64,000 bases of DNA from Psychrobacter coccoides (GTDB taxonomy: Bacteria; Pseudomonadota; Gammaproteobacteria; Pseudomonadales; Moraxellaceae), in assembly GCF_017498085.1 (NCBI RefSeq), contig NZ_JAGBKM010000001.1, positions 241,021 through 305,020 on the forward strand. The letters are read 5' to 3'. Position 1 is the first letter of the stretch. Each line of letters starts with the position of its first letter. Below are positions 5,470-50,616 of the stretch, piece by piece. The notes below the pieces were generated by a model. That model searched no databases. It had not been told where the DNA came from and saw nothing but the letters and a program-made list of their open reading frames with translations. Both the position numbers and the translations under genes were made by a program.

Positions 5470-6228
5470 ATGAATACCAAACCCTCTGTACATGCTATGA
5501 TCGTCGCTGCTGGTCGTGGTAGCCGTTTTGGTGCCTCTATAGCTAAGCAGTATACAAGACTACAAGAGCAGACGCTGCTACAGCACAGTGTGGCGAGGTT
5601 AGCCGCTAGCACTTATATTGACAAATGCCTTTTGGTCATCGCAGCAAATGATACGACAGCTCAGACATTGAGTTTTAAGCTGCCAATATCCTATGCCATC
5701 GGTGGCGCTGAGCGTTGGCAGTCTGTACAAGCAGGGGTCGACGCAATTGTCAATACCGGTGCGGCTGGCTCAGATTTGGTATTGATACATGATGCTGCTC
5801 GCCCTGCCGTGCCTACCCAAGATATTGAGCACGTGATTGAGGCGGCGATGCTTGAACGATATGGCGCTATTTTAGCCGTCCCCGTCGCTGATACGTTGAA
5901 GAGGTCTGTTTCCCCCAATCAGTCACCATCAACGCCAGCCTTAGGTTCGGCACGTTATATCGCTCATACTGTTGACCGTGAAGGGATGTGGCAGGCCCAA
6001 ACGCCGCAAGTATACCGACTTGAGCAGTTGCAGCAGGTCTTAGCACATGTTGCTAGGCACGAGCTCGCCATCACCGATGAAGCCAGTGCTTTTGAGCATT
6101 TAAATCTGCCCATTCGCTTGGTCGCTGGTAGTCGCCAAAATATCAAGCTGACCTATCCTGATGATGCTGTCTTATTACAAGCCATCTTGACTGCTCAAAA
6201 AAAGTCTCGTCCTCAACTCAAACCATAA
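5470..6228 (+). CDS. ispD: 2-C-methyl-D-erythritol 4-phosphate cytidylyltransferase
   Basis: A 252-residue enzyme of the non-mevalonate isoprenoid pathway; it transfers CMP from CTP to MEP. Motifs: AAGRGSRFG (residues 13-21), KQYTRL, IHDAARP, DTLKRS and QTPQVYRLEQL. It is slightly longer than the E. coli enzyme, with a loop around SVSPNQSPSTPALGS and a short C-terminal tail, KKSRPQLKP. The last codons and the TAA stop lie inside the left end of a dispersed repeat (6200-6381): the sequence from GTCCTCA aligns without gaps over 45 bases with the repeat copy at 40490. The repeat therefore appears to have supplied the C-terminus of this protein. Confidence 0.95.
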   Translation: MNTKPSVHAMIVAAGRGSRFGASIAKQYTRLQEQTLLQHSVARLAASTYIDKCLLVIAANDTTAQTLSFKLPISYAIGGAERWQSVQAGVDAIVNTGAAGSDLVLIHDAARPAVPTQDIEHVIEAAMLERYGAILAVPVADTLKRSVSPNQSPSTPALGSARYIAHTVDREGMWQAQTPQVYRLEQLQQVLAHVARHELAITDEASAFEHLNLPIRLVAGSRQNIKLTYPDDAVLLQAILTAQKKSRPQLKP

Positions 6229-6381
6229 CTCTCTAAGTGGGTTAACAATGGCTACATGTTGTCAAATGACGTTAAATAGCCAGCTAATGTCTCAATAGCG
6301 CTGAGAGCTGCACTGTTTTCCTTGTTTGACTGCTGCCTGTCTTGTTTTGATCTGTACTTTCCAAATAATGACATATTCTAG
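6200..6381. repeat. Diverged full-length copy of the CTAG-ended repeat
   Basis: Collinear with the copy at 40490-40665. It shares GTCCTCAA at the left, GACGTTAAATAGC and TTTTCCTTGTTTGAC in the middle, and TGACATATTCTAG at the right. The terminal repeats have decayed, so it is older than the other copies. It overlaps the last codons of ispD and occupies the first part of the 457-bp ispD-BLUF spacer. I see nothing else recognisable in the rest of that spacer (6382-6685), which is AT-rich. Confidence 0.7.
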
Positions 6382-38531: not shown

Positions 38532-40493
38532 ATGGGTTGGTTTGGATATATGCGTCAATCTTCTGCACTTGATATATTAAAAACAGGTCAAAATGTCTTT
38601 TTGACGGGTTCGGCAGGCTCTGGTAAGACTTATACGCTTAACCAATATATTCATTATTTGCGTGCACGCCGTGTACCGGTGGCGGTGACCGCTAGTACTG
38701 GTATCGCTGCGACCCATATGAGTGGTACGACCATCCATAGCTGGTCGGGTATAGGTATCAAGGATGAACTATCAGAGCGTGATTTGGTCAATCTGTCACG
38801 TAAGCAGTTTTTGGCAGACAGAATCAAAGACACTGCAGTATTGATTATCGACGAGATATCTATGCTCCATGCCAAGCAGCTCAACCTAGTCAATCAGGTG
38901 CTCAAGCATATACGAAAAAAAGATGAGGCTTTTGGGGGGATTCAAGTCGTGGTGGCGGGGGATTTTTTTCAGTTGCCACCGATTGGAAGTAAGGGCGAGA
39001 GCAATCGAGAGAAGTTTGCTTTTATGTCAGAAGCGTGGCTCGATGCTGGGTTTCACATTTGTTATTTGTCGGAGCAACACAGGCAAGTCAGCGAGGCGGC
39101 TCAGGGTGGTCTAGATTTGGATGATATTCTCAATCAGATTCGCAGACAAGAAGTCACGTTTGAAGCGATTGCGGCACTGGAAGCCACCTATGATCAAGAT
39201 GTTGATGTCAGCCGCACCCGTCTTTATACCCATAATCTTAATGTCAATAAAATCAATGACAAAGAGCTTGCAAATCTAAATGGCGAGATGATGCGCTTTG
39301 AGGCAACAGCCACAGGCGATAGCAAACTGGTTGAGACATTAAAAAAGACGGTGCGCACCCAAGATGAGCTGATTTTGAAAGTTGGGGCGAAAGTGATGTT
39401 TATCAAAAATAACACGGAGCTTGGCGTCTCTAATGGCACCATGGGCGAGCTCGTTGGTTTTGCAGCGGTCAAGGTTGACGACAATAAAGATAGTGAGGAG
39501 ACTTTAACCGAAAAAGGCACTGATATCGATTTGGATACAGACAGCGCTGCTGATAATGATGAAGAGACAGCTGATCATAAAAAAGAGGCAGCAAAAAAAG
39601 ACAAAGAAAAGTCAAAAAAAGCCATCACACAGAAAATGCCTGTGGTCAGACTCAACTCAGGACGTGAAGTCGTTGCAGAGCCTGAAGAGTGGATTATCGA
39701 AGACGAAACTGGGGACGTGCTGGCAAGTTATCATCAAGTACCGCTTTGTCTGGCATGGGCGATTACCATTCATAAATCTCAAGGCATGACCCTGGACGCC
39801 GCTGAAATCGATTTGTCACGTACCTTTGAGCTGGGACAAGGTTATGTGGCGTTGTCACGACTTAAGTCATTGGCAGGCTTGCAGCTGCTGGGTATGAATG
39901 AGATGAGCCTACAGCTTGACCCGTTGGCCCGTGGTGCTGATAAACGGTTTTTGGTGCTCTCTGAAGAAGCAGACGCCAACTATGCCATGCTTGATGAAAA
40001 AAGCATGTCACAAGCTCATGATAAGTTCGTACTAAAGTCAGGTGGTACACTGAGTCAGTCCGTCATTGAAGCCTATACCAGTCTACAAAAGCGCCGCCGT
40101 GAGCGTCAGCAAGCGCAGCTGGATAAAAAGAGCAAGCTAAGCAATCAAGTGGCTGATAAGTCTGAGAGTACGCTGATGGCGACCAGGCTACTATTAGAAG
40201 AGAGTCTGTCTATCGCTGATATTGCCCAAACACGGGAACTGGCACAATCGACGATTATGCGCCATATCAGTGAGCTGAAGTCACAAGACCCCAGCCTTGC
40301 TTGCGATCACTTGCGCCCTGATGATGATATTATGACCGCAGTTGGCAATGCCTATGTCGCTATTAAAGTCGCCAACAACCCCAATGACTTTAACGACAAT
40401 GGCAGTATCAAGCTGCGTCCTATCTATGAGCATCTTAAACAAGCCTTTGACTATAATACCATTCGTTTGGCATTGATATTTATCACACCCTAG
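38532..40493 (+). CDS. Pif1-like superfamily 1 helicase with C-terminal HTH
   Basis: 653 residues. Walker A is GSAGSGKT (residues 26-33), followed by VTASTGIAATHMSGTTIHSW (motif Ia of the Pif1/RecD2-type helicases), Walker B LIIDEISML, and VVVAGDFFQLPPI (motif III). IHKSQGMTLDAAEIDLSRTF and GQGYVALSRL are motifs V and VI. Between about 310 and 370 there is a highly charged, low-complexity insertion (acidic, then Lys-rich). The end carries a helix-turn-helix (ADIAQTRELAQSTIMRHISE) of the kind found at helicase C-termini. ATG 38550 is an alternative start. The TAG stop is the terminal CTAG of a repeat element that begins there. Confidence 0.88.
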   Translation: MGWFGYMRQSSALDILKTGQNVFLTGSAGSGKTYTLNQYIHYLRARRVPVAVTASTGIAATHMSGTTIHSWSGIGIKDELSERDLVNLSRKQFLADRIKDTAVLIIDEISMLHAKQLNLVNQVLKHIRKKDEAFGGIQVVVAGDFFQLPPIGSKGESNREKFAFMSEAWLDAGFHICYLSEQHRQVSEAAQGGLDLDDILNQIRRQEVTFEAIAALEATYDQDVDVSRTRLYTHNLNVNKINDKELANLNGEMMRFEATATGDSKLVETLKKTVRTQDELILKVGAKVMFIKNNTELGVSNGTMGELVGFAAVKVDDNKDSEETLTEKGTDIDLDTDSAADNDEETADHKKEAAKKDKEKSKKAITQKMPVVRLNSGREVVAEPEEWIIEDETGDVLASYHQVPLCLAWAITIHKSQGMTLDAAEIDLSRTFELGQGYVALSRLKSLAGLQLLGMNEMSLQLDPLARGADKRFLVLSEEADANYAMLDEKSMSQAHDKFVLKSGGTLSQSVIEAYTSLQKRRRERQQAQLDKKSKLSNQVADKSESTLMATRLLLEESLSIADIAQTRELAQSTIMRHISELKSQDPSLACDHLRPDDDIMTAVGNAYVAIKVANNPNDFNDNGSIKLRPIYEHLKQAFDYNTIRLALIFITP

Positions 40494-40665
40494 GGCATGT
40501 CCTCAATTCAATCGAAGGATACCTAAATGGGCTAAAAATGGCTAAATCTTGCCAAACGTCGTTAAATAGCTAGGTAATATCCCGATATTATCTGCGCTAT
40601 TTTCCTTGTTTGACGGCAATTTATCTCATTTTTATCTCCATTTTTAAAATGAGGACAAGCCCTAG
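40490..40665. repeat. CTAG-ended MITE-like repeat, copy A
   Basis: 176 bp from CTAG to CTAG. The left end is CTAGGGCATGTCCTCAATTC, the right end (reverse complement) is CTAGGGCTTGTCCTCATTTT. There is no coding capacity. The first CTAG contains the helicase stop codon. It matches the copy at 50442-50616 in reverse orientation over its whole length. Confidence 0.8.
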
Positions 40666-40734
40666 TATTATTTATAGTGTTCCGCGTCTATTATCTCTTT
40701 ATACCACTTCCAACCTTTATAGCGATATCCTGTT

Positions 40735-41916
40735 ATGCCTGATTTTTCCAGCACCACCTACCATCTCACATCAGACCCCGCAGTAGCATCAGGGTTTCAT
40801 GCAACCAGTGAGCACACACAGCCATTGAGGGTCGCTATTAATGGATTTGGTCGCATAGGACGTAATGTCCTCCGTGCGCTACTTGAGCGCTTTGAGGTGC
40901 TAGGCCGTGCTATACATGTGGTCGCTATCAATGACTTAGCACCAGCAGATATTTTATTGCATTTGTTAAAGTTTGACAGTACTCATGGTCGTCTCAGTCG
41001 GCTAGGGGTCAGTGCAGACATCATAGAGAGCACCATCGATGAATACAGCCAAACGCAATTGTGCTTGACCAAAAAAAACCACACGTATTGTATTCGCATG
41101 CTCTCAGAGCCAGATCCTAAGCAGCTACCATGGCAAACGCTTGGTATTGATGTGGTGTTAGAGTGCACGGGCTACTTTCGGTCTTACGATCAGGCGCACT
41201 TGCATATTGAGGCAGGTGCGCAGCAAGTTATCATCGGTGCAGCCCCTTTTGATGATGTGGACGCCTGTATCGTGATGGGTGTCAACACTGAGCTATTGAC
41301 GTGCGAGTTACCAATCATCTCTAGCGTCTCTTGTACCACGCAAGCCTTGGTGCCCTTGATTGATACACTTGACAAGGCATTTGGTGTGCAGTCGGCTATG
41401 ATGACTGAGATTCATGCAGTGACCGCTGATCAAACGGTGCTCGATCAGGCGCATCGTGATCCAAGACGGGCACGTGCTTCAGGCCATAACATCATTCCTA
41501 CGACATCTAGTAGTATCGCAGCGACTGAGCGGGTATTGCCGACGATGACAGATAAAATCAATGGTCATTCTATACGTGTGCCAACCATAGACGTTGCTGC
41601 TATCGATGTGACCTTTGTATTTGAGACGCCCAATGTCCGAATTGACTCAGTAAAACAAGCACTGCTAACAGCAAGTACGGCGCATTTGCTTGATATTATG
41701 TCTTATACTGAGGAGCCTTTGGTTTCAAGTGACTTTATTCATCAGTCAGAGTCGCTGATCATTGATGGTCAGCAGCTCATGCAGGTAGGCAATCAATACA
41801 AGGTTTTTGCTTGGTATGACAATGAGTGGGGCTATGCCAACAGGCTGCTGGATATGTGTTTGCACCTGGCATCTAGTAAGCAAAAACTGACTGAAAAAGC
41901 CTTAGAAAAAAAATAA
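40735..41916 (+). CDS. Glyceraldehyde-3-phosphate or erythrose-4-phosphate dehydrogenase family protein
   Basis: 393 residues. NAD-binding start VAINGFGRIGRNVLRALLER, then VVAINDLAPADILLHLLKFD. The catalytic Cys lies in SCTTQALVP and the catalytic His in EIHAVTADQ; the usual motif is SCTTN, so Asn is replaced by Gln. The sequences RVPTIDVAAIDVTF and EEPLVSSDFIHQSESLIIDG are closer to erythrose-4-phosphate dehydrogenase (Epd) than to classical GapA, but RASGHNIIPT is GAPDH-like. About 33 residues precede the Rossmann fold with no other start codon in between. It could work in gluconeogenesis or in pyridoxal phosphate synthesis; I cannot decide. Confidence 0.85.
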   Translation: MPDFSSTTYHLTSDPAVASGFHATSEHTQPLRVAINGFGRIGRNVLRALLERFEVLGRAIHVVAINDLAPADILLHLLKFDSTHGRLSRLGVSADIIESTIDEYSQTQLCLTKKNHTYCIRMLSEPDPKQLPWQTLGIDVVLECTGYFRSYDQAHLHIEAGAQQVIIGAAPFDDVDACIVMGVNTELLTCELPIISSVSCTTQALVPLIDTLDKAFGVQSAMMTEIHAVTADQTVLDQAHRDPRRARASGHNIIPTTSSSIAATERVLPTMTDKINGHSIRVPTIDVAAIDVTFVFETPNVRIDSVKQALLTASTAHLLDIMSYTEEPLVSSDFIHQSESLIIDGQQLMQVGNQYKVFAWYDNEWGYANRLLDMCLHLASSKQKLTEKALEKK

Positions 41917-50064: not shown

Positions 50065-50445
50065 ATGGATGTAAAAGCGTTATTTAAAAAAGGTATAGAA
50101 CAACAATTACTCGATGTAGATGACTATATCTTTACGCCTAAACAATATGAAATGAGAGTTGAAGATGGCGACTTAAAGTGTATCCTAAACAGCGACGGCA
50201 GCGTCAATATTTTTTATAGTAAAGAAGGGATTACCGATGTTAGAGCAGCAGCACGTAAACACCCTTTTACCACTTTTGACACCGAGCTGCATCACGGTAT
50301 CTATGATGATGTGATTGAAGATTTAATCGATAGTGTGAATGAGATTATAAACAGTCATTCAAAGTATTTTCGTATCAACAAAGTCTTGCCAATGACGGCA
50401 GCTTTAGATGGCGATACTGTGATTACAGAAGCTGATAAAGACTAG
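50065..50445 (+). CDS. Hypothetical acidic protein
   Basis: 126 residues with no recognised family, signal peptide or membrane helix. It is acidic, with alternating beta and alpha segments (YTPKQ-like loop, CILNSDGSVNIFYS, FTTFDTELHHGIYDDVIEDL, then IDSVNEIINS). AAGGATAAAGATA precedes the ATG, so it is probably expressed. Its TAG stop is part of the CTAG end of the repeat element at 50442, so the native C-terminus may have been altered by the insertion. Confidence 0.6.
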   Translation: MDVKALFKKGIEQQLLDVDDYIFTPKQYEMRVEDGDLKCILNSDGSVNIFYSKEGITDVRAAARKHPFTTFDTELHHGIYDDVIEDLIDSVNEIINSHSKYFRINKVLPMTAALDGDTVITEADKD

Positions 50446-50616
50446 GGCGTGTCCTCATTTTGAAAATTATGATAAAAATGAGATAAATTGAAGTCAAACA
50501 AGGAAAATAACGCAGATAATATCGGGATACTAGCCAGTTATTTGACGCCGTTTGGCAAAATTTAGCCATTTTTAGTCCATTTAGATGCAATCGTTCAGAT
50601 TGAGGACACGCCCTAG
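50442..50616. repeat. CTAG-ended MITE-like repeat, copy C
   Basis: 175 bp from CTAG to CTAG, in opposite orientation to copy A. The ends are CTAGGGCGTGTCCTCA and TGAGGACACGCCCTAG, a perfect 16-bp terminal inverted repeat. It is the best-preserved copy in the window. The remaining spacer (50617-50767) holds the terminator at 50702-50738. Confidence 0.85.

Follow-up and report, generated by a model that had tools for sequence, protein, structure and literature searches.

IS870 creates its own stop codon by inserting into CTAG, and CTAG is also preferred by IS630, whose target preference was reportedly described by Tenzen and Ohtsubo in 1991. Elements of the IS427 group measure 832–865 bp and nearly all have 2-bp repeats, while some members have two overlapping frames, according to the accessible part of their description (PMC3281130). 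Among smaller elements, MITEPsy1 of Pseudomonas syringae is given in the available part of its account as 100 nt long, with ends GGAAGGTCTGAAAAAGCC and a reported 4-nt duplication (PMC3189936), and MITEAba12 of Acinetobacter appears in the excerpted report as an element of 111–114 bp with ends GGCTTTGTTGCACAAA and 9-bp duplications, ISAba12 being its proposed mover (PMC6382973). Foldback intergenic MITEs are characterised, in the portion of the source available, as short, AT-rich and intergenic, with a stable stem-loop in the transcript (PMC10969869).

Here we describe an element from a 64,000-nucleotide stretch of Psychrobacter coccoides DNA (contig NZ_JAGBKM010000001.1, positions 241,021 to 305,020 of the forward strand; referred to as the window) that is very probably a MITE of an IS5-family, IS427-like insertion sequence (IS), and whose inner core is a covarying hairpin seen with varied ends. 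The MITE part of this reading is ordinary and well supported. The element differs from the IS427 group in having no transposase, with only its ends (~13–18 bp) in common. As far as the accessible account goes, MITEPsy1 resembles it in being a small, tentatively IS5-like MITE that inserts at CTAG or YTAA, but differs, when compared by description, in its length of 100 nt, its other ends and its 4-nt duplication (PMC3189936); MITEPsy1 may be a relative. MITEAba12, in the available part of its report, is likewise a MITE from the same bacterial family (PMC6382973), but an identification with it was rejected because neither the ends GGCTTTGTTGCAC nor the 9-bp duplication was found. With foldback intergenic MITEs, as partly described, the element shares its short length, AT-richness, intergenic placement and stem-loop (PMC10969869). 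Within the literature searched (most subscription journals lay outside it), neither the element nor its core was described, and we found no account of one covarying core common to differently ended MITEs across many families.

An element in the helicase stop codon

The features of the window on which the analysis rests are the following:

38532..40493, plus strand: helicase gene holding the insertion in its stop codon; protein end the same as in orthologues
40491..40492, no strand: left-hand TA of the duplicated target, which also forms bases 1–2 of the helicase stop codon TAG
40493..40662, plus strand: MITE copy A, 170 bp, with ends GGGCATGTCCTCAATT and, as reverse complement, GGGCTTGTCCTCATTT
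40524..40637, plus strand: structured core, modelled as R1 (114 positions)
40663..40664, no strand: right-hand TA of the duplicated target, with G as the next base
50445..50613, minus strand: MITE copy C, 169 bp, with its core on the minus strand at 50470–50583
6200..6375, plus strand: decayed copy B, limits approximate, with a core match at 6234–6353

The original prediction, made from the letters of the window, had placed a MITE-like element of 176 bp at 40490..40665. An element is indeed present there, but its proper limits are 40493–40662 (170 bp). The inverted ends that had been claimed were found at both copy A (40490–40505 and 40650–40665) and copy C (50442–50457 and 50601–50616). With up to 3 mismatches allowed, the end pattern had 5 matches in the window, one of them elsewhere at 827, as against a mean of 0.67 and a largest value of 3 in 100 shuffles. 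Copy A is short (170 bp), carries no transposase gene and has matched terminal inverted repeats, and the family to which it belongs has many dispersed copies, a target duplication and an empty site, as a MITE should.

The helicase frame ends ...FITP-TAG, in which TA belongs to the flank and G is the first base of the element; the left CTAG that was thought to hold this TAG consists of a pyrimidine, the TA and the element's first G. To see how the gene ends elsewhere, we turned to its Psychrobacter orthologues, using 71 of 79 loci and leaving out L358–L360, L362 and L371–L374 (other bacteria). An element end (2 mismatches allowed) was present within 400 bp past the helicase stop in 0 of these 71 orthologues, and in 69 of them the stop codon immediately follows the residue aligned with the last one of the helicase. 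Their stop codon is TAA or TAG in 70 cases and TGA in one, and the C-terminal residues are ITP in 65 and others in the remaining six. The absence of the element behind all 71 orthologues, together with a stop in the matching place in 69 of them, indicates that the helicase stop predates the insertion, which went into a stop codon already present and did not alter the protein.

Copy C, too, begins in a stop codon as had been predicted, its left TA lying inside that of a predicted small gene at 50065–50445 found by our own gene caller. Copy B, a decayed relative with a core match of E 2.1e-9, reaches into ispD as proposed: the ispD frame stops inside its left end, ending ...SRPQLKP-stop. Since the frame runs into this left end, it is apparently copy B that encodes SRPQLKP, the last residues of ispD.

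Copy number and spread

The expectation of a multi-copy element with further copies in the genome and the genus was borne out. In the own genome, where the search scored 40 of its 82 initial candidates, at least 40 near-complete BLAST places and one 32-base piece were found; a 13-base end occurred there in 61 exact copies, compared to 0 for a reversed control pattern. The element was found in 22 of the 38 genomes searched, the own genome included. With the stricter filters and rough E-values used for searches over more than 40 genomes, relatives appeared in 78 of 199 family genomes, across 6 of 16 genera. They also occur, with 74–75 percent identity, in three plasmid records of Moraxella osloensis, two of which were looked at.

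On one M. osloensis plasmid (L269, 3003–3177), a relative stops ~2 bp short of the annotated ssb start. The own genome further contains tiny TA-flanked derivatives of 36 bp (L086, 1501–1536) and 59 bp (L070 and L076, both 1501–1559), which are hardly more than the two ends.

A covarying hairpin core

When folded, the whole element (40485–40670) reached –61.4 kcal/mol, compared to –33.7 kcal/mol in shuffles (z –7.1), and the other strand gave a z of –6.4. A total of 42 elements with ends of various types could be aligned over their inner sequence (alignment A1), with 95.2 percent of pair cells forming pairs and 108 double-change cells versus 28.8 in shuffled alignments (0/500) and at most 36 with slid partners. 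In alignment A3 (28 rows, including sequences from genomes G026 and G273, which are outside the family), 22 of 32 pairs had double changes, with 157 double-change cells versus 50.4 shuffled and at most 49 slid. The class-wide alignment A4 (41 rows, omitting L470, L473, L476, L478–L480, L482 and L483) had 91.4 percent of its cells pairing and 243 double-change cells, where shuffling gave 72.5 and sliding the partners by one to three columns no more than 65; as in all of these alignments, the double-change count is inflated by relatedness among the rows. The rows of A1 to A4 (42, 40, 28 and 41, respectively) were hand-picked for diversity. In 20 of its 41 rows, A4 shares loci with A3 or with the earlier alignments that yielded the structure. 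As RNAalifold recovered only part of the structure from A4, its helices were carried over by hand from A3.

Some unpaired bases are fixed as well, with CGT opposite CCT and T.G opposite C.GC; in A4, CGT is conserved at 93 percent and CCT at 95–100 percent. This fixation is limited to some positions, since in A3 paired columns are on average more conserved than unpaired ones (column means of 1.19 versus 0.97 bits).

R1, a covariance model built on the core, matched 17 of 293 order genomes, 8 of them outside the family. The strongest of the latter matches were in G026 (E 5e-10) and G273 (E 2e-8), where the core resides in repeated elements with different ends (GAGACCATTGCATT and AGAGRCCTTTRC), and the remaining R1 matches outside the family, which are weaker (E 1e-5 to 1e-3), may include some chance matches to other palindromes. 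A second model (R2), applied to the class at E 1e-4, matched 50 of 369 genomes (own included) and 43 of 272 genera, with a best E of 7.6e-23 outside the own genome. At the level of the phylum, R2 matched 34 of 398 genomes, namely the own genome, 5 from the same order, 12 from the same class and 16 from outside the class, the last by model score alone and with 15 of the 16 belonging to one family (f246). Many of the class-wide loci have GAGACCTTTGCACGA-type or GGAACCTCTGATTAATTC-type ends (26 of the 29 loci L455–L483 were looked at). In L417, L418 and L420, which come from other families, CCCGAAGGGCG or a similar sequence stands beside a core-like apex whose kinship to the core is uncertain.

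Because the helices vary and yet pair, some loop bases are near-fixed and the ends differ, we infer that the core is under selection as a folded molecule, either RNA or single-stranded DNA. It would then be kept because it works as such a folded nucleic acid, and it would have been re-ended by, or have co-evolved with, different transposase partners (which were sought within the bacterial family only). Our tentative proposal, for which we would claim somewhat less than even confidence, is that the core is an undescribed mobile hairpin module, present through much of the class and perhaps beyond, in which pairing and loops are selected and which borrows the ends of whatever transposase is available. 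Paired changes could also arise from homogenisation of the arms by template switching in a quasi-palindrome, in which case selection need not be invoked and the core would reflect shared ancestry only. The element is nearly palindromic, kinship among the sequences can inflate the counts, and arm-to-arm gene conversion could yield some paired changes without selection. Homogenisation should, however, wipe out mismatched internal loops, whereas the loop bases CGT and CCT are well kept, and slid partners do not come near the double-change count of the true ones in A4; we therefore regard this explanation as unlikely. The persistence of the hairpin's pairing over many families, with ends that vary, suggests that a functional folded module is present in some MITEs, which would then be more than dead IS, an idea that R2 and the alignments make directly testable.

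Rfam gave no match for positions 40200–40900 (E up to 1) or, at gathering thresholds, for four loci. Roles as a terminator or a promoter were both rejected for 40400–40800, where a simple scan found zero terminator-like sites, and 2 promoter-like sites compared to 1.4 in shuffles. In tandem gene contexts, the element had the same strand as the genes in 45 cases and the opposite strand in 14, or 35:15 (P 0.007) after removal of shared insertions. A strand bias would point to RNA, and the prediction was fixed before a second set of 80 copies was scored (G018 was added, and G548 was named but not included). This second set did not confirm the bias (26:19, P 0.37); the pooled ratio of 61:34 (P 0.007) contains the set that prompted the idea.

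Target site and duplication

In a scan without any TA requirement, 56 of 57 elements in loci L001–L058 were flanked by TA on both sides. The sole exception (L008, 1502–1671) has AGA instead of TA on its left side, with CTAGA directly upstream. For 123 unique insertions, collected with a finder that required TA on both sides, the base preceding the left TA was C in 81, T in 37 and A in 5 cases, and the right TA was followed by G in 80, A in 41 and T in 2, so that C or T comes before in 118 and G or A after in 121 of the 123. The predicted preference for CTAG was upheld, as this target accounts for 49 of the 123 insertions, a 12.9-fold enrichment relative to NTAN sites in the flanking DNA. Against the same background, the enrichment was 4.6- to 4.9-fold for CTAA and TTAG, and TTAA was not enriched.

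A flanking CTAG had originally been thought to represent a 4-bp target-site duplication, with a single CTAG expected at empty sites. An empty site was found, as the own genome has an unoccupied version of a site that is filled in genome G022, but the 49-bp junction is identical around a single TA. The filled site in G022 reads TTA-GGGC..GCCC-TAG, and a 4-bp repeat is therefore absent. Both the flanks of the insertions and this empty site thus rule out a 4-bp CTAG duplication, and the duplication is TA within a CTAG-preferring YTAR target. The 4-bp duplication that marks the IS5 group sensu stricto (YTAR) is not shown by the element.

Stop codons and gene context

Since YTAR is palindromic with a central TA and the element starts with G, a TAA or TAG stop that receives the element in frame always ends up as TAG, and the insertion is silent. 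Moreover, because A or G nearly always follows TA in the empty target, an insertion in frame with a gene was already at a stop. A palindromic TA target combined with ends that begin with G hence amounts to a simple rule, in which a stop stays a stop. This rebuilding of TAG accounts for the helicase insertion with no need for the element to be drawn to stops.

Attraction was nevertheless part of the original prediction, in which an element that targets CTAG would collect at amber stops. Copies A and C do sit in stop codons, and CTAG is the favourite target. Among 120 classified insertions (3 of the 123 were dropped as their flanks were too short), 10 were located in stops, 107 were intergenic and 3 lay in coding edges, all gene calls being made with our own small codon-usage caller. 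Against a null weighted by target type, however, the 10 insertions in stops compare with 8.3 expected among 110 (P 0.32), ten insertions being left out of this test (7 outside YTAR and 3 in coding edges), and the predicted accumulation at stop codons was thus not found.

Avoidance of coding DNA is strong, with 117 of 120 insertions in non-coding DNA compared to 2324 of 6997 null YTAR sites. There was a mild excess between convergent gene pairs (29 of 115 insertions versus 298 of 2067 null sites, P 0.003), and the gene 3′ ends that face an insertion were located within 30 bp of it more often than those facing null sites (43 of 116 versus 425 of 1727, P 0.004). L137 and the first insertion of L238, neither a member of this element family, were excluded from these gene-context counts and from the strand counts, and some insertions had no gene on one side. 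The excess near 3′ ends would suit an element that specifically seeks stops, but it and the convergent excess also fit avoidance of promoters, as 0 percent of the facing 5′ ends were within 20 bp of an insertion, as opposed to 6 percent at null sites. Together with the target-weighted test, this makes a specific search for stop codons very improbable. Copies would instead persist where they are harmless, and MITEs at gene ends need not imply targeting.

Probable partner insertion sequences

A search with PF13340 returned a match in 43 of 60 genus genomes. The IS recovered had ends GGGCGTGTCATCAATT, GGGCGTGTCTTCAATT, GGGCGTGTCCCTAATT, a mixed pair of GGGCGTGTCCCTAATT and GGGCGTGTCCTCAATT, GGGTGTGTTGACA and GGGCGTGTTGAACATT, with the end types being CATCA, CTTCA, CCCTA, CCCTA/CCTCA, GTTGACA and GTTGAAC. 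In a scan without TA requirement, all 34 distinct IS insertions were flanked by TA on both sides, the empty site being available for the MITE only. Their length was 805–860 bp (835–860 bp in 30 of the 34), and they contain two overlapping transposase frames. In one of them (L109), frame 2 matched NF033580 (IS5 family) with 189.2 bits, above the cut-off of 110, and frame 1 alone scored 89.1 bits, below it. In size, in their two overlapping frames and in their TA flanks these IS are like the IS427 group as far as the available part of its description extends, and it is by these features that we apply the group name to them.

The IS5-type assignment in the original prediction is hence supported, since IS whose ends are of this kind code for IS5-family transposases. 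A full-length IS of this kind would supply a transposase that acts in trans on the shared ends. MITE end types are CCTCA, CTTCA and CATCA in Psychrobacter and CCCTA, GTTGAAC and GTTGACA in other genera, and genomes G104 and G078 have CCCTA-ended MITEs alongside an IS with a CCCTA end. The MITE has the target and TA flanks of these IS, and its ends match theirs, for the CCTCA type of copy A at one IS end only. Among the genomes searched, no complete IS carried CCTCA ends on both sides, and the nearest ones combine a CCTCA end with a CCCTA end. The search for an IS with the same ends was therefore successful in the genus, but for the CCTCA type it yielded a single-ended match. No related transposase had been seen in the window; related ones do exist in the genus, and the own genome retains 79 bp of what was an IS end of the CCTCA type. 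As the only DUF4096 gene of the own genome lies within an IS of another end type, the partner may have been lost there, may fall in an assembly gap or may be differently ended.

That the mover of the element (ends GGGCNTGTCCTCA) is of the IS630/Tc1 type, which also duplicates TA and prefers CTAG and is thus alike in target and duplication, is scarcely credible given the IS5-family transposases encoded by IS with the same kind of ends. Derivation of the MITE interior from the body of an IS was also rejected, as only the ends were alike by eye. Finally, one 158-bp TA-flanked sequence (L137, 1501–1658), bounded left and right by IS ends, resembles an internally deleted IS.
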